From positions 124,001 to 188,000 of the forward strand of contig SUYI01000002.1 in NCBI GenBank assembly GCA_015060485.1: 64,000 bases of DNA. The letters are read 5' to 3'. The number at the start of each line of letters is the position of its first letter. Within the stretch, counting starts at the first letter, position 1. Positions 7,602-56,935 of this stretch are shown one piece after another. The notes beneath the pieces were generated by a model. It had not been told where the DNA came from, ran no database searches, and saw only the letters and a list, made by a program, of their open reading frames with translations. The position numbers and the translations under genes were made by a program. The stretch comes from Prevotella sp. GTDB lineage: Bacteria; Bacteroidota; Bacteroidia; Bacteroidales; Bacteroidaceae.

Positions 7602-7648
7602 TTTTTCTTCTTCGTTTTTGTTTTCAGTCGACAAAGGTACGCATTTAG

Positions 7649-7680
7649 TTACAAACCGCCAAGTTTTTCGTCTTAATTAT
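7649..7680 (+). promoter_or_regulatory. Shared upstream motif TTACAAA-N13-CGTCTTAAT
   Basis: ACAAA (7651) N13 CGTCTT (7669), 27 nt before ATG 7696; one of seven sites. Confidence 0.6.
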
Positions 7681-7695
7681 AAATAAATAGGTAAC

Positions 7696-10600
7696 ATGAT
7701 GAAACGTTTTTGTTCTTTTTTCTTGCTACTGACAGTCTGTTTGATGGTATCAGCACAGCAAAAAGTGTATATATCAACCTCGTTCCACGAGCCAGCCACA
7801 GATGGTTTGCGGTTTATCTACAGTCGTGACGGGTGGACTTGGCAACAGGTCGACGGCATCTGGTTGAAGCCTGAGGTGGGCAACCAGCGAGTGATGCGCG
7901 ATCCCTCGATTATCCGTACGCCTGACGGCATGTTCCATCTTGTGTGGACGTCGAGTTGGCGAGGCGACAGGGGTTTTGGCTATGCTTGTTCGAAGGATCT
8001 GGTACACTGGAGCGAACAGCGTTTCATCGAGGTGATGACGGACACGTCGACAGTCAATGTCTGGGCACCCGAACTCTTCTGGGATGACGTCAAGAAACAG
8101 GCCATCATCATCTGGGCTTCGTGCATTCCAGGCAAGTTCCCTGATGGTTTGGAAGAGCACAGAAACAACCACCGCCTCTACTATACCACCACGAAGGATT
8201 TCAAGACCTTTGCGCCTACGAAGCTGATGATTGACCCAGGGTTTTCGTGCATCGACGCCACGTTGGTGAAGCGTGCCAAGAACGACTACGTGATGGTGCT
8301 GAAGGACAATACCCGTCCTGAACGCGACATCAAAGTCGCCTATGCCAAATCGCCCTATGGCCCGTGGTCGAAGGCATCAGAGCCCTTTACGGGAAAGATG
8401 ATGGAGGGTCCCACGGTACTGAAACTGGACGAGCAAATAGTAAATAGTAAATCGTCAAATAGTAAATCAGGTTGGTTGATATACTACGACCGCTATCGTC
8501 TCTTCGACTTCGGAGCCCATTATACGAAGGACTTTGTGACGTTCGAAGATGTCAGCGACCAGACAACGATTCCGCCTTTGCATAAGCACGGCACCATCTT
8601 CGAGGCTGATGAAACAATCCTGCAGGGGTTGTTGAATGCCAAAAAGATTCATTATTCGGGCAAGACGCTAAGCAATCCTAATCGTCACGACGGAGGACTG
8701 AGTCCTGTGGTGGGTGTGCACAACATCCAGATTATGCGGGCCAATCGCGAGCAGCGCTCTGAAGCTAATGGCAACGGCTGGACGTATAACCACCAGCCCA
8801 TGATGGCTTACTGGAACAATCAGTTCTTTGTACATTACCTCTGCGACCCTAAGGATGAACACGTGCCTCCCTCTCATACCTTGCTCCAAACCTCAAAGGA
8901 CGGCTATACGTGGAGTACCCCGCTGGTTCTCTTCCCTGAGGTACAGGTGCCTGAAGGTTTCCAAAAGCCCAATCGTCCTGAGAAAGCCCACGACCTCATT
9001 GCCATCATGCATCAGCGTGTGGGCTGGTATGTCTCGAAGAGTGGACAGCTGTGGGCTCTTGGCAATTATGGCGTCGCCTTCGACAAGAAGGACGACCCCA
9101 ACGATGGTAATGGTATGGGCCGCGTCATCCGTGAAGTCAGGAAGGACGGCACGCTGGGCCCGATTTATTTCATCTATCTGAACCATACCTACAAAAGCTA
9201 CAAAACCTACTTCCCTTTTTACACCAAGGCCGACAAGGCCACCCGTCAGGCCTGTGAAGAAATCCTCGCCAACCCCCGCTATCGCATGCAATGGGTAGAG
9301 GAGGCTGATCGCGAAGACCCGCTTATTCCTTTGCATAAGGAGTACAAGGCCTATTGCGACTATACCCTGCCCGACGGACAGATTGCATCGCTGTGGAAGC
9401 ATGCATTGACGTCGACAAGTGCTGATGGTGGGCTTACATGGGCCCAGCCTGTGGAACGTGCCAAGGGCTTTGTCAACAGCAACGCGAAAATCTGGGGACA
9501 GCGTCTCTCGGATGGCACCTATGCTACCATCTATAACCCTTCCGAATTCCGTTGGCCGTTGGCTATTTCGTTAAGCAAGGATGGCTATGAATACACCACG
9601 CTGAATCTGGTTCAGGGCGAAGTACCCCCCATGCGCTATGGCGGCAACTACAAGAGCTACGGCCCTCAGTATGTGCGAGGCATCCAGGAGGGTAACGGGG
9701 TTCCCAAAGACTCTGACCTCTGGGTGACTTACTCAATGAACAAAGAGGATATGTGGGTAGCGCATATCCCCGTGCCCGTCCAGACGGAAGCTCACAACCA
9801 CGCTGACAGCACGGAGTTTACTGTGGGCAAGATTTCAGATCTTGCCACCTGGAACATCCACTCCCCAGTCTACGCCCCCGTATCCTTAAACGACGGCTGG
9901 CTGACCCTCAGCGACAGCGATCCCTTTGACTATGCCCGCGTAGAAAGGAAGATTCCTGCCACTAAGGAGCTGAAGGTCAGTTTCGACCTTCGTGCCTCAC
10001 AAAACGACAAGGGTTTGTTACAGATTGAATTCCTCGATGCTCACGGTACTGCCTGTTCACGCATCGAACTTACAGACGAGGGTCTGATGCGCTGCAAAGG
10101 CGGTGCCCGCTATGGCGGACTGGACAGGTACGAGCCCAACACCACCTATCACATCGAAGCAGTCCTGAGTGTCTCGAAGCGAATGATAGAGGTCTTTATC
10201 AACGGCAAGAAGGCTGGTCAGCGCATGTTCTTTGCTCCTGTGGAGGCCATCGAGCGCGTCATGTTCCGCACGGGTTCTGAGCGCCGATTCCCTGATGTCG
10301 ATACGCCTGCCGATTGGGACGGAGTGCTTGACAATGCTGGCGACAAGGCCCCCACAGCCACCTTCGCCATTGCCAGCGTTTGTACTGTGCCCGTTGGTTC
10401 TGCCAACGGGGATGGCGCCTTCCTCCGCTACGACGACTACAAGCACTACGTCGACTACTTCAACACGATGGAGGACGAAAACATCGTACAGGCCATTCCC
10501 AACAGCAAGGCATGGGAGTGGATGATGCAGAACGTGCCCCTCTTCGACTGTCCCAACAAGGCCTTCGAAGAAATGTGGTACTATCGCTGGTGGACACTCA

Positions 10601-36622: not shown

Positions 36623-39022
36623 ATGAAGATACTAACGCTGAAGGCATTTTTATTTTTTATTTTTTGTTTTCTATTGACTCCTGCTAGAGCGCAACACCGC
36701 TTGTGGTACGACCAGCCTGCCCAGACGTGGACGCAGGCACTGCCCATCGGTAATGGTGTGATGGGTGGAATGGTGTTTGGAACTCCAGCGGTAGAGCATA
36801 TTCAATTGAACGAGGAAACCATTTGGGCCGGACAGCCTAATAATGTGGTGAACCCCAATGCGAAGGAGGCTCTGCCCGAGGTGCGCAGACTGATTTTCGA
36901 AGGAAAATACAAAGAGGCGCAGGACTTGGCCAACGCCAAGGTGATGCCCCGTGCCGTAGACAAGAATATGGGTATGCCCTATCAGCCGTTTGGCGACCTG
37001 TATATCGCAATGCCTGGACACGCAAACTACTCTGATTATGAGCGTTGGTTGGATTTGGACAATGCCAAAAGCGTGGTGAGCTACCAAGTAGCCGGGGTGC
37101 AGTATGAACGTGAAACGATAGCCCCGTTGGGAGGTCATCAAGTTATTGCTATCCGCCTGACTGCCAGCGAGAAAGGCAAGATTACGTTTACTGCCAATAT
37201 GACGTCGCCCCATGAAAACGTGCTCATCAACATGGATGGTAACGAGGCGACGCTGCTGGGTGTTTCCAGCAAGCACGAAGGTTTGAAGGGTAAGGTGCGC
37301 TTTATGGGGCGTATGGCTGTACAGACAAAGGGCGGTCAGGTCAGCGGTTCGAATGGAATCATCAGCGTCGTTGGTGCCGATGAGGCTACGCTGTATGTCA
37401 CTGTTGGCACTAATGTCAAGAGTTATAAGGACATCACGGGCGACGAAGTCCAGCAGTCGAAAGAACGCCTGAGCGGAGCAATGGCCCTAGGCTATGAGGC
37501 GCTGAAGGCCCTGCACGAAAAGACCTATAAGCACTATTACAACCGCGTGACGCTTGACTTGGGCGAAGACCAATATGCCAACGTCCCCATGAATAAGCGT
37601 ATCGAGCGCTTTAGTGTGGTCAGCGATTCTGTCGCTGACAATCACCTCGTTGCCACTTACTTTCAGTTCGGACGTTACCTGTTGATTTGCAGCAGTCAGC
37701 CCGACAATATGAACCCTGCTAACCTTCAGGGTATCTGGAACGACAAGATGTTCCCCTCGTGGGACTCGAAATACACCACGAACATCAATCTCGAGATGAA
37801 TTACTGGCCTTCGGAGGTCACGAACTTGACAGAGATGAACGAGCCTTTGTTTAAACTCATCCGTGAGATTTATGAACAAGGTAAGGAAACGGCTCGCGAT
37901 ATGTATGGTGCAGAGGGTTGGGTGCTGCACCACAATACTGACCAGTGGCGTATTACGGGCCCTGTGGATCGTGCCCAAACGGGACTCTGGCCTGTAGGTT
38001 CTGCTTGGCTCTGTCGCCATTTGTGGGAGCACTATCTTTATACGAGCGACAAGGATTTCCTTCGTCAGTACTATCCCATCATGCTCGACGCAGCCCGTTT
38101 CTATACGCAGACACTGCAAAAGCATCCAACGAAGGGCTGGCTTGTCGTCTGTCCTGGTGAGTCGCCAGAACATGGTGGTAAGGGCCGCCCCACACCGCTC
38201 GACGCAGGTGTGACGATGGACAATCAGATTGTTACTGAGCTATACACCAACGTACTGGAAGCTGCTAAAATCATTGGCGACAACAACCCTCTGCTCTCAG
38301 TTTTCAGTTCTCAGTTAGCACAACTTCCTCCCATGCAGATAGGTCGTTGGGGCCAGTTGCAGGAGTGGCTCGACGATTTAGATGATCCCAAGGACGACCA
38401 TCGCCATTTCTCACATCTCTACGGACTCTATCCTTCGTATCAGATTTCTCCCACTCGCACCCCAGCGCTTTGGGAAGCTGCACGTAAGTCGCTTGAGGCT
38501 CGTGGCGACGTATCGACAGGTTGGTCGATGGGTTGGAAAGTCTGTTCGTGGGCCCGTTTGCTCGATGGCGAGCACGCCTACAAGCTCATCAAGGACCAGT
38601 TGACGCTGACTGCCGACACCTTCTTGATTTTTGGCACCGTCAAACAACGTGGCGGTACCTATCCCAATATGTTCGATGCCCATCCACCCTTCCAGATTGA
38701 CGGCAACTTCGGTTGTACGGCTGGTATTGCCGAGATGCTGATGCAGAGCTACGATGGATTTATCTATCTGTTACCAGCCCTTCCCTCTGTATGGAAAGAC
38801 GGTAGCATCAAGGGCCTTGTGGCTCGTGGAGGATTTGAGATTGATATCGACTGGAAGGACGGAAAACTGACGAAGGCTGTTGTTCGCTCTCGTAATGGAG
38901 GAACTTGTCTGCTTCGTTCGAATACTCCCATCAAGGGTAAAGGTTTGAAAAAAGGTAAGCAGAACCTCTATACCTTGAACACCAAAGCTGGCGGAGTCTA
39001 TGAATTAAAGGTAAAAGAGTAA
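36623..39022 (+). CDS. GH95 alpha-L-fucosidase, secreted
   Basis: [66 protein letters not shown]. Confidence 0.92.
36647..36674 (+). repeat. Heptamer array (TTTTTAT x4) encoding the GH95 signal-peptide core
   Basis: tttttat tttttat tttttgt tttctat -> [10 protein letters not shown]. Confidence 0.75.
38296..38316 (+). repeat. In-frame heptamer array (CTCAGTT x3)
   Basis: ctcagtt ttcagtt ctcagtt, encoding part of [12 protein letters not shown] in GH95. Confidence 0.65.
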
Positions 39023-39050: not shown

Positions 39051-40475
39051 ATGAAGAACGGAAAAACATGTTTTGGCGTGATTATCGGAACACGCGCCTA
39101 TTTTAACTCTGAGTTGGCCAAAGACGTGCGTAAGCAACTGCTGAAGACACTCGAAGATGGAGGTTATGAGTACATCATTCTGCCTGAGGATGCTACACCT
39201 ACCGGCAGTTCAAGCATCGAGACTCGCGAGGATGGTCTGAAGGTTTCGAAGCAGTTCCGTGAGCATCGCGACGAGATTGACGGTATCATTGTCTCGCTGC
39301 CTAACTTCGGCTTCGAAATTGGTATCATCAACGCCATTAGCGATGCTGACTTGAACGTCCCCGTATTGGTACAGGCTTGTGACGACGAGAATGACAAGGT
39401 TGACCTTGATTCACGTCGCGATGCTTTCTGCGGTAAGATCAGTGTGTGTAACAACCTCTATCAGTATGGTATTCCCTTTACGGACACCACTCTGCATACT
39501 TATAGCATCTACGACCCACTGCTCCGCAAGGACATCGACCGCTTTGCTGCTATCTGTCGCGTAGTCAATGGTTTGCGCCACTGTCGACTGGGACAGATTG
39601 GAACGCGTCCTTTGGGTTTCAACACATGTCGTGCATCAGAAAAGCTGTTACAGCGCTCAGGCATCACCGTTGTTCCTGCTGACCTCAGCGAGATCCTTTA
39701 TGCTGCCCAGAAGATCAGCGACGACGATCCCAAATTTATCGAGATGTGTAATCGTACCTGCAATTACGCCAAGGTGCCCGACAGCTATAAGGAGAAGTTA
39801 GGCTTGCAGGCTAAGTTCAGCGTGGCTGTTGAAAACTGGATTGAGCAGAACGATGTGCAGGCTGTAGCCATTCAGTGTTGGGATTCGTTGGAGCAGAACT
39901 ACGGCTGTGCCCCCTGTGTCACCATGTCGATGCTAAGCGAGAAACTGATTCCTGCTGCTTGTGAGACTGACCTCGCTGGTGCCGTATCGATGTACGCCCT
40001 CGCCCTCGCCTCGCAGAATGCTCCTGCCTTGCTCGACTGGAACAACAACTTCGCTGAGGATCGCAACAAGTGTGTCTGCACACACTGCGGCAACTTCCCC
40101 AAGCAGTTTGTGGGGAATGGCGACCTCAAGTTAGGTCCGTTGGGCGTGTTGGGTCGTACACTGGGTAAAATCAATACCTTTGGCGCTGTCTATGCTAAGG
40201 TCAGCGAAGGACCCTTCACCTTCTTCCGTATCTCGACAGACGATCCCAAGGGTCAGATCAAGGCTTACCTGGGCAAGGGCGAAATCACCAACGATCCCTA
40301 TGGCATGGACGGTTGTATCGCAGTTACTCAGGTCGACAACCTGCAGCAGCTGATGAAGTATATCTGCAAGAATGGCTTCGAACATCATGTGGCCATGTGC
40401 CGCACTGATGTGGTCGACATCCTCAATGAAGCTATTGAGACCTACCTCGGCTGGAATTTATACGTCCACGAGTAA
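39051..40475 (+). CDS. L-fucose/L-arabinose isomerase-family protein
   Basis: Sugar isomerase fold; AVAIQCWDSLEQNYGCAPC, CVCTHCGNFP. Confidence 0.75.
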   Translation: MKNGKTCFGVIIGTRAYFNSELAKDVRKQLLKTLEDGGYEYIILPEDATPTGSSSIETREDGLKVSKQFREHRDEIDGIIVSLPNFGFEIGIINAISDADLNVPVLVQACDDENDKVDLDSRRDAFCGKISVCNNLYQYGIPFTDTTLHTYSIYDPLLRKDIDRFAAICRVVNGLRHCRLGQIGTRPLGFNTCRASEKLLQRSGITVVPADLSEILYAAQKISDDDPKFIEMCNRTCNYAKVPDSYKEKLGLQAKFSVAVENWIEQNDVQAVAIQCWDSLEQNYGCAPCVTMSMLSEKLIPAACETDLAGAVSMYALALASQNAPALLDWNNNFAEDRNKCVCTHCGNFPKQFVGNGDLKLGPLGVLGRTLGKINTFGAVYAKVSEGPFTFFRISTDDPKGQIKAYLGKGEITNDPYGMDGCIAVTQVDNLQQLMKYICKNGFEHHVAMCRTDVVDILNEAIETYLGWNLYVHE

Positions 40476-46769: not shown

Positions 46770-48485
46770 ATGAAACGATTTCCGCTGTTCTGCTGGCTGA
46801 TTTTCTGCTACCTATCGTTAGCAGTGGCATCAGGTGATTCCACAGACTCCTGTGCTGTGAGGAAACTGGAAGTCGAACGGCTGCCCGACCTGAATATCCC
46901 CCGCAATGCCCATAACATCCTTTGCGTGAATGGCGAGGTAACGGTGGTTGGTGGCCATACCAAGAGTTTCATTCCTACTGCGACGGCAGAATACTATAAG
47001 GATGGCGAGTGGCACCTGATGGAGACAGAATATCCGCACGACAATGGTATATGTGTGGTGCTGAAGTCGGGTAAGGTGCTTCTGGCAGGAGGTCATGCCG
47101 AGCCGATGGGCGTCGGTCAGACCTACCCTGTAGAGGAATACGACCCTGCGACGCATACCTTCAGAGGCTTCAGTTGTCTGAGCACCAAGCGCACATTGGC
47201 TGTTGGAGCAGAGCTGGACAGCGGCAGGGTCGTGGTGACAGGCAACTGGTATGCCAAAGACGGCATCGAACTGTTCGATGGTGACAGGGATTTCTCTCGT
47301 GTGAAAGGCGTTTCCGTCGGTCGTGCCACACCCTACCTTCTCCGTACTTCTGACGATAATGTCCTCATCTTGGGCAGCGGTGGCACACATGGTGAAGCAT
47401 TATTCTCCGACAAGGTGGATCGCCTAAAGGGCGACCCGCTGCAAGTTCCCCTGCTGCGGCAGTGGCAACCGCTATTCTATGAAGCACCTTTTTGTAGCAA
47501 TATAGGATTCATTGGCAACGAGGATGCTAACGACTATTCCTGGCTGGTGCCCGTGCAAGACAGGACGGTTGGCGACAGCACCGATTGGGTGTTATTCAAG
47601 CCGTTGGCTTTCCTTCATGTTCGCGACACCATCTTCTCGCTGCTGCCTACCACATGTCCTGCTCCCGTGAAGGGTCCTTATGGCCCGATTCATTATTACA
47701 GCCCCGTCATTGCCGACCGCCAGGCGCATCGTGGCTATATGCATGGCATCGACAAGGATAACCGCCATTATGTGCTCTGCGTGGAGTATGACAAGACGCC
47801 GGCTCCGCTGACGCTCTACTATACCGACCCGCTGCCGGAGGCTGGCTTTCCTGAGATAGTCCTCACCGACGATGGCAACCTGATGATTGTGGGTGGCATC
47901 ACCTATAACAAGCCCCTCAACGGCACGCTGCAGAACGACAACTTCTCGCCCTTATCCACCGTCTTTCTCTTGCGTGTTGGTAACAGTGATGTCGCAGAAT
48001 CATCCGATGGAGTCATTGGTAAATGGCTATGGGGCATTCTCGCTTTGGCAATTCTGGCGATAGCCATTGCTTTATTCCTGATTCGCAAGCGGCACAACCA
48101 CCAGACATCTGTCGTCGATGCACCAGACTCTGACACATCCGCTTCCAATCCGAACGAAGTCCTGATGCAGCGCATCAGCCGCCTGATGGAACAGCAACAA
48201 CTCTATCTCGACAGCGACCTGAAACTATCTGACGTAGCCGCTATGCTTGCCACCAACCGCAATGCCATCTCCAACTGCATCAACTCGCAGCACGGCTGCT
48301 CGTTCACCCAGTTCGTCAACACCTATCGTGTGGAATATGCCCAAAAACTGATGCGACAACAATCAGACATCAAAATCTCTGAGGTTTGGATGTCATCGGG
48401 ATTCTCCACCGAACGAACTTTTCTTAGAACCTTCAAGCAACAGACGGGCATGACTCCCAGCAACTGGAAATCCAAAATCGACTGA
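46770..48485 (+). CDS. Membrane-spanning regulator: Kelch-like beta-propeller sensor + TM + AraC-type HTH
   Basis: Signal peptide, Kelch-like repeats (VTVVGGHTKSF, VLLAGGHAEP), TM WLWGILALAILAIAIALFLI, C-terminal AraC HTH (SDVAAMLATNRNAISN...SSGFSTERTFLRTFKQQTGMTPSNWK). Confidence 0.85.
   Translation: MKRFPLFCWLIFCYLSLAVASGDSTDSCAVRKLEVERLPDLNIPRNAHNILCVNGEVTVVGGHTKSFIPTATAEYYKDGEWHLMETEYPHDNGICVVLKSGKVLLAGGHAEPMGVGQTYPVEEYDPATHTFRGFSCLSTKRTLAVGAELDSGRVVVTGNWYAKDGIELFDGDRDFSRVKGVSVGRATPYLLRTSDDNVLILGSGGTHGEALFSDKVDRLKGDPLQVPLLRQWQPLFYEAPFCSNIGFIGNEDANDYSWLVPVQDRTVGDSTDWVLFKPLAFLHVRDTIFSLLPTTCPAPVKGPYGPIHYYSPVIADRQAHRGYMHGIDKDNRHYVLCVEYDKTPAPLTLYYTDPLPEAGFPEIVLTDDGNLMIVGGITYNKPLNGTLQNDNFSPLSTVFLLRVGNSDVAESSDGVIGKWLWGILALAILAIAIALFLIRKRHNHQTSVVDAPDSDTSASNPNEVLMQRISRLMEQQQLYLDSDLKLSDVAAMLATNRNAISNCINSQHGCSFTQFVNTYRVEYAQKLMRQQSDIKISEVWMSSGFSTERTFLRTFKQQTGMTPSNWKSKID
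48470..48485. repeat. 16-bp direct repeat, left copy
   Basis: ATCCAAAATCGACTGA, identical at 49955..49970. Confidence 0.85.
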
Positions 48486-56842: not shown

Positions 56843-56903
56843 GCAACTCGTGGGCGTGAACGTATTGTTCACCCCATTTTTTTTGCTATCCCCCTTCTCT
56901 TAG

Positions 56904-56935
56904 TTACAAAACGTGCGCGTGTTCGTCTTTATTAT
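56904..56935 (+). promoter_or_regulatory. Shared upstream motif TTACAAA-N13-CGTCTTTATTATAAA
   Basis: ACAAA 56906, N13, CGTCTT 56924, upstream of GH2. Confidence 0.6.

Follow-up and report, generated by a model that had tools for sequence, protein, structure and literature searches.

Among the described systems closest to the one proposed here are the HTCS proteins BT0981, BT4111, and BT4178, which likewise control pectin degradation and differ in being membrane-bound two-component activators encoded inside the PUL. For the loci that degrade rhamnogalacturonan-II (RG-II), two RG-II-induced PULs of Bacteroides thetaiotaomicron are described without an associated regulator (PMC3243724), and the RG-II PUL of Bacteroides xylanisolvens yielded none either, for which a sequencing gap was suggested (PMC4769552). 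Alternative Bacteroides promoters have been attributed to the ECF sigma factors EcfO (PM2) in Bacteroides fragilis and SigH-1 and SigW-1 in B. thetaiotaomicron, which concern oxidative stress and stationary phase and are tied to no RG-II or pectin regulon in the texts searched (PMC7366714, PMC12596196); they are set apart from the present system by these descriptions rather than by base-by-base comparison of motifs. The prediction of ECF promoters has been called challenging, and a motif for BT0981 was not predicted (PMC3878776); by 2020 a promoter motif was known for no ECF sigma factor of B. thetaiotaomicron (PMC7366714), and the main text of a 2025 network study contains neither rhamnogalacturonan nor pectin (PMC12596196).

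Here we describe a two-box motif, [GA][AG]TKACA-N15/16-MGTCTT-(A/T)n, that on sequence evidence is very probably the −35/−10 promoter of an orphan ECF sigma factor directing a dispersed RG-II regulon in gut and rumen Bacteroidales. Like the FecI/FecR pairs of PULs, this system has an ECF sigma factor with regions 2 and 4, a partner with homology to the FecR N terminus, and glycan-related targets. It differs from them in that the partner corresponds to the N-terminal domain alone and has neither the transmembrane helix nor the FecR (PF04773) and FecR_C (PF16344) domains of PUL partners, the sigma gene does not lie beside susC/susD (the motif-bearing SusC/D pair is on another contig), one sigma factor would serve many distant loci, and the sigma gene has a housekeeping promoter instead of being autoregulated. 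The enzymes of the regulon, relatives of BT1017, BT1020, BT0986, and BT0997, are of the kind encoded by the RG-II PULs of B. thetaiotaomicron (PMC3243724) and by PUL 2 of B. xylanisolvens XB1A (PMC4769552); the difference is that a trans-acting sigma factor is proposed here, whereas no associated regulator was reported for those PULs. The family of ECF sigma factors with FecR-related partners is already known; what is new is that the partner stands alone, that the pair lies apart from SusC/D, and that the regulon is RG-II-wide. A description of this sigma factor was not found in the open-access literature.

The window, a stretch of 64,000 nucleotides, is part of the 220,390-bp contig C9 of a 3.94-Mb draft genome of Prevotella sp. 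An initial annotation had placed a promoter-like motif, ACAAA-N13-MGTCTT, before seven carbohydrate transcription units, and all seven sites are present in the window sequence at the positions it gave. Four of the seven match exactly, where 0.03 would be expected from dinucleotide shuffles, and four or more exact matches occurred in none of 100 such shuffles; the variants are also as it had reported (N14 at 12180, ACAAC at 22711, and ACATT/AGTCCTT at 36578). Alignment of the sites bears out the conserved flanks on both sides of the core, TGATKACAAAAC-N11-YGTCTT with an A/T run behind it. The motif itself stands, but its ACAAA half has to be redrawn as a longer heptamer (GATGACA, GATTACA, or AGTTACA), and the geometry becomes 15 nt, rarely 16, from ACA to MGTC. 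The refined motif, [GA][AG]TKACA-N15(16)-MGTCTT plus an A/T run, ends 12 to 45 nt before start codons. The sites and the genes behind them, all on the forward strand, are listed below in window coordinates with the scores of a weight matrix described further on.

7647..7674, forward strand: promoter motif AGTTACA-N15-CGTCTT before the BT1020-like gene; exact core match; matrix score 23.1; NGTC-to-ATG distance 24 nt
7696..11979, forward strand: BT1020-like multidomain RG-II hydrolase (Pfam BT_1020 beta-propeller; PDB 5mqr, 1681 bits)
12176..12204, forward strand: promoter motif GATGACA-N16-CGTCTT before GH78; matrix score 25.6
12214..14616, forward strand: GH78 alpha-L-rhamnosidase (Pfam); ATG 12 nt beyond NGTC
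19278..19305, forward strand: promoter motif GATGACA-N15-CGTCTT before aldolase and symporter; exact core match; matrix score 26.1
19337..20275, forward strand: DHDPS-family aldolase (Pfam PF00701)
20266..21777, forward strand: sodium:solute symporter (Pfam SSF), overlapping the aldolase gene
22707..22734, forward strand: promoter motif GATGACA-N15-CGTCTT before fucI; one mismatch to the core; matrix score 25.4
22774..24597, forward strand: L-fucose isomerase fucI (NCBIfam fucI, 1050 bits, above the cut-off)
27405..27432, forward strand: promoter motif GACGACA-N15-AGTCTT before the BT1017-like gene; exact core match; matrix score 20.8
27462..28784, forward strand: BT1017-like RG-II pectin methylesterase (PDB 6goc, E 4e-179)
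36574..36601, forward strand: promoter motif GATGACA-N15-AGTCCT before GH95; matrix score 18.2
36623..39022, forward strand: GH95 (Pfam GH95, 583 bits)
39051..40475, forward strand: sugar isomerase with a fucose-isomerase C-terminal domain (Pfam PF02952), weakly similar to sulfoquinovose isomerase
56902..56929, forward strand: promoter motif AGTTACA-N15-CGTCTT before GH2; exact core match; matrix score 19.1
56949..59870, forward strand: GH2 glycoside hydrolase (Pfam)
59903..62965, forward strand: GH106, BT0986-like RG-II rhamnosidase (Pfam GH106; PDB 5mqm, 1172 bits)

Judged by homology, the genes behind the motif are an RG-II set: the regulon comprises close homologs of BT1020, BT1017, BT0986, and BT0997, an apiosidase, GH141, GH95, SusC/D, aldolases, and fucI. 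The PDB entries 5mqr, 6goc, and 5mqm we take to be BT1020, BT1017, and BT0986, respectively, and the BPa0997 relative was matched to the solved structure 6hzf. The 6goc match covers residues 23 to 434 of the 658-aa chain. The esterase at 27462-28784 is without the C-terminal DUF3826 found in the B. thetaiotaomicron enzyme, and the gene that follows it (28781-29347) encodes a TPR-like protein. The BT1017 structure has been reported, and the methylesterase is essential for RG-II use (PMC7939467). The GH106 gene starts 33 nt beyond the GH2 gene, and the sugar isomerase is probably in one operon with GH95. A specific assignment for the aldolase was not found in the NCBIfam search; its substrate is probably a 3-deoxy sugar acid of RG-II. 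Pairs of a DHDPS aldolase and an SSF symporter occur twice in the regulon (window 19337-21777 and C9:107538-110001), possibly for Kdo and Dha.

In the whole genome, exact ACAAA-N13-MGTCTT occurs 12 times, 7 of them on C9, versus 3 times for the reversed pattern, and GATKACA-N15/16-MGTCT occurs 16 times versus 3 in the control. The loosest genome-wide search, the long pattern with three mismatches, was uninformative (26 matches versus 36 in the control), so that only the strong form of the motif is informative. The GAGTACA pattern seen in other lineages matches this genome at chance level only, because this lineage uses GATKACA. A weight matrix was trained on 46 promoters at the sigma loci of other genomes, with this genome unseen; the spacing is 15 nt in all 46 training sites and 15 or 16 nt elsewhere. 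When C9 (220 kb) was scanned, all seven window sites fell within the top 11 (scores of 18.2 to 26.1), and within the window scores of at least 18 marked exactly these seven and nothing besides. The top 11 also contained the sigma locus (32.1) and new sites at contig positions 36005 (minus strand, before a split transketolase), 105044 (minus strand, before an iron alcohol dehydrogenase), and 112878 (before a BPa0997-like RG-II enzyme). The matrix maximum in 20 block shuffles of C9 was 16.6, and the reversed contig held one site at 19.6, above two window sites, which makes the sites at 18.2 and 19.1 individually less certain. Weaker scores were obtained at the second aldolase and symporter (17.4), a pectate-lyase-like gene (13.4), and the apiosidase (12.2). 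Well-scoring sites on other contigs stand before a SusC/SusD pair (25.2), before GH141 with GH31, a symporter-like open reading frame, and GH127 behind it (29.9), and before a xylose-isomerase-like protein (27.5); contig C61 has a site before a pectinesterase. The seven sites first annotated are one part of about 17 likely sites across the genome, and the absence of the motif from housekeeping genes holds for the whole of C9.

Some of the genes near these sites merit separate mention. Behind the site at contig position 36005 lie a two-gene transketolase and then a glycerol-kinase-like FGGY kinase (C9:32597-35950, minus strand; L040:12597-15950), possibly a pathway for apiose or another RG-II sugar. 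The xylose-isomerase-like protein behind the motif (L319:693-1601) is a secreted-looking TIM-barrel protein (PF01261); a sequence-similar relative adjoins the sigma gene at locus L100, and at loci L137, L145, and L152 the motif is followed by open reading frames of similar length. A 1010-aa DUF6298 protein closely behind the pectate-lyase-like gene of the regulon (C9:200636-203668; L046:12636-15665) is a candidate RG-II or pectin enzyme.

The likely reader of the motif is encoded outside the window on the same contig.

C9:208760-209317: candidate RG-II sigma factor (PF04542 + PF08281; 185 aa)

The motif comes directly after this sigma gene, and an 86-aa gene comes next. The sigma gene product consists of sigma regions 2 and 4 only, at a length within the range of about 160 to 200 aa that defines the ECF type, and it scores 72 bits against TIGR02937 (cut-off, 42.9) and 74.9 bits, under the curated cut-off of 126.4, against TIGR02985 (Bacteroidetes FecI-like sigma). 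The genome contains 24 ECF-like matches above the family cut-off. The regulon promoters show the traits of ECF promoters, namely two boxes, fixed spacing, a CGTC-type −10, and a position near the start codon. TAnnTTTG is absent between motif and ATG at the regulon promoters, and a standard housekeeping promoter was rejected as a reading of the sites on this ground. Upstream of the sigma genes themselves the picture is reversed: TAnnTTTG lies within 150 nt of all 79 testable genes (7% in random stretches), and the RG-II motif lies within 200 nt of none of the 79. We conclude that a housekeeping promoter serves the sigma gene, which thus lacks the autoregulation that is common, if not universal, among ECF sigma factors.

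In region 4.2, the residue preceding SVRN is H at 47 of 47 motif-bearing loci with [GA][AG]T[GT]ACA and Q at 57 of 58 with GAGTACA. This switch in the recognition helix is one change on the tree, so that the covariation at 104 of 105 loci counts as a single event and is supporting evidence only. Segatella buccae (L240:9272, L174:4002) has an H-type sigma factor but GAGTACA at the lyase promoter, so that the H type does not hold strictly to its −35 box. The suggestion in the initial annotation of an ECF-type promoter, read by an alternative sigma factor in a sugar-responsive regulon, gains support by an independent route, since the motif is the promoter inside the candidate's own locus in about 60 relatives and a matrix built from sigma-locus promoters recovers the window sites; the regulon can now be specified as that of RG-II pectin and the catabolism of some of its sugars.

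Across the Bacteroidaceae the sigma gene pairs with a gene of about 85 aa, and the motif is the promoter of this small gene. A profile of the small protein located the gene beside sigma at 74 of 80 loci (on the opposite strand in L148), and the same search did not detect it at a few (L162, L163, L184, and L185). In one clade the small gene precedes the sigma gene, and by inspection the boxes are retained at 8 of 9 small genes, with scores that for most of them reach or exceed the 99% background (11.1); because the boxes follow the small gene, they belong to its promoter. The small protein had no notable sequence match in Pfam, NCBIfam, or PDB and no match in a fold search, and it is predicted to be all-helical (pLDDT 79.5). 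Its profile A2 matches three FecR N termini (E values of 5e-9, 1e-5, and 1e-3) that belong to full FecR anti-sigma factors encoded beside other ECF genes. We therefore read the small protein as an isolated FecR N-terminal (anti-sigma) domain that has neither membrane nor sensor parts, and the simplest model is a soluble anti-sigma factor controlled by its own sigma factor.

The inhibitory role is deduced from the FecR homology, and some FecR-type proteins are required for the activity of their sigma factors. The small protein might accordingly be a co-activator or adaptor that the sigma factor needs, a reading consistent with the place of the small gene within the regulon; the link between sigma factor and promoter would stand, and control would be a positive feedback. 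We consider this improbable, as the homology is to the sigma-binding N terminus of FecR, whose usual basal role is inhibition.

Clear sigma orthologs were present in 17 of 301 genomes of the family (E < 1e-39; next group, 1e-32), and in most of the 17 a similar pair of boxes separates the sigma gene from a small gene, even with the GAGTACA half-site. Phocaeicola vulgatus ATCC 8482 carries an ortholog at position 3,701,125. Among 80 named loci from Prevotella, Segatella, Bacteroides, Phocaeicola, Mediterranea, and others, GA[GT][GT]ACA-N15/16-NGTC lies within 120 nt of the sigma stop codon in 59, and four further loci carry GGTGACA or GGTTACA by eye. In 10 Bacteroides/Phocaeicola genomes with the sigma factor, GAGTACA-N15/16-CGTC occurs 60 times versus 15 in the control, while 24 genomes from these genera that lack the sigma factor show the pattern 36 times versus 57. 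Several genomes with an ortholog (G177, G135) show little excess under this rigid pattern.

The sigma factor also occurs together with BT1017. The comparison took in 83 Bacteroides genomes with a completeness of at least 90% in which both genes were tested for: 30 have both, 2 have BT1017 only, none has sigma only, and 51 have neither (Fisher P = 1e-20, in a test that ignores shared ancestry). For the two genomes with BT1017 and no detected sigma ortholog (G375 and G362), a draft gap, loss, or another regulator is possible. The best BT1017 identity among the genomes searched was 93%, so that B. thetaiotaomicron itself is apparently not one of them. Where both genes are on one contig they are 28 to 245 kb apart, so that the link would escape a search of gene neighborhoods. 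In Phocaeicola, Bacteroides, and Segatella the same RG-II genes have the motif in front of them: with matrices trained on sigma loci, sites scoring at least 17 in other genera lie before the pectate-lyase-like gene in more than 20 loci and also before BT1020, GH2, GH127, GH106, GH95, and BPa0997 relatives. In two Bacteroides genomes, by inference B. xylanisolvens XB1A and B. ovatus ATCC 8483, the motif occurs in the RG-II cluster before GH95, lyase, and BT1020-like genes (scores of 14.8 to 19.0).

A very unlikely alternative to a sigma-dependent promoter is an operator: the motif would bind a dedicated transcription factor (AraC, HTCS, or other), this factor would activate promoters read by the housekeeping sigma factor, and the sigma gene would be just a neighbor or one more target. 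An AraC-type regulator is encoded in the window at 46770-48485, and BT0981 is an HTCS within the rhamnogalacturonan-induced BT0977-1030 of B. thetaiotaomicron (PMC3878776). Such an operator is at odds with two boxes at a fixed spacing of 15 to 16 nt, 12 to 45 nt before start codons without TAnnTTTG, and with a motif that about 60 genomes carry at the locus of a single sigma lineage and that tracks the small gene when gene order is reversed. The AraC-type regulator has 571 aa and lies between sufB-like and ATPase genes.

That the motif is read by the ECF sigma factor encoded in the window itself (29397-29894), which is ECF by Pfam/NCBIfam and only 2 kb behind a motif site, is hardly credible, because it has a different promoter of its own (an AAC...CGTA-like sequence and no motif), the motif stands at the locus of another sigma factor on which the matrix recovering the window sites was trained, and its neighbors are a membrane-spanning protein and MG2-domain proteins; it was rejected as the reader and is probably unrelated. 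The segment 29397-35510 comprises this second ECF gene, a small membrane-spanning partner (29894-30481, no Pfam match), and two consecutive large MG2-domain proteins, and the sequence upstream of the ECF gene, cttaacattcgtaagccttatgcgtatat, resembles a different ECF promoter (AAC...CGTA).

The motif, the genes behind it, the architecture of the sigma locus, conservation, co-occurrence, and FecR homology observed here suggest a model of promoter binding, inhibition, and release by a cue. The sigma gene would be transcribed constitutively by the housekeeping sigma factor, and the free-standing FecR-type anti-sigma domain of about 85 aa would keep its product inactive. During growth on RG-II, a cue would free the sigma factor from the small protein; since the latter is without any membrane or periplasmic part, we infer that the cue is probably intracellular. 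The freed sigma factor would transcribe the RG-II esterase, glycosidases, lyase, SusC/D, and sugar-catabolic genes together with the gene for its own anti-sigma factor, closing a negative feedback loop. In its fullest form, which we offer tentatively and with slightly less than even confidence, the proposal is a membrane-free switch in which a stand-alone FecR N-terminal domain responds to an intracellular sugar or metabolite derived from RG-II and frees one sigma factor that commands the entire scattered RG-II program across the Bacteroidaceae, including the loci of B. thetaiotaomicron that have no assigned regulator.

Of the plant polysaccharides that gut bacteria are known to consume, RG-II is the most complex, and the proposed sigma factor fits the missing regulator of RG-II PULs. 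With a conserved sigma factor, a promoter sequence, and a likely target list, the question of the regulator can be put to a direct test in type strains. The motif is also a tool at genome scale, in that genes behind it are candidates for a part in RG-II use. A FecR anti-sigma domain that has shed its membrane and sensor segments suggests that sensing takes place inside the cell, unlike the sensing at the cell surface by the usual sigma systems of PULs.
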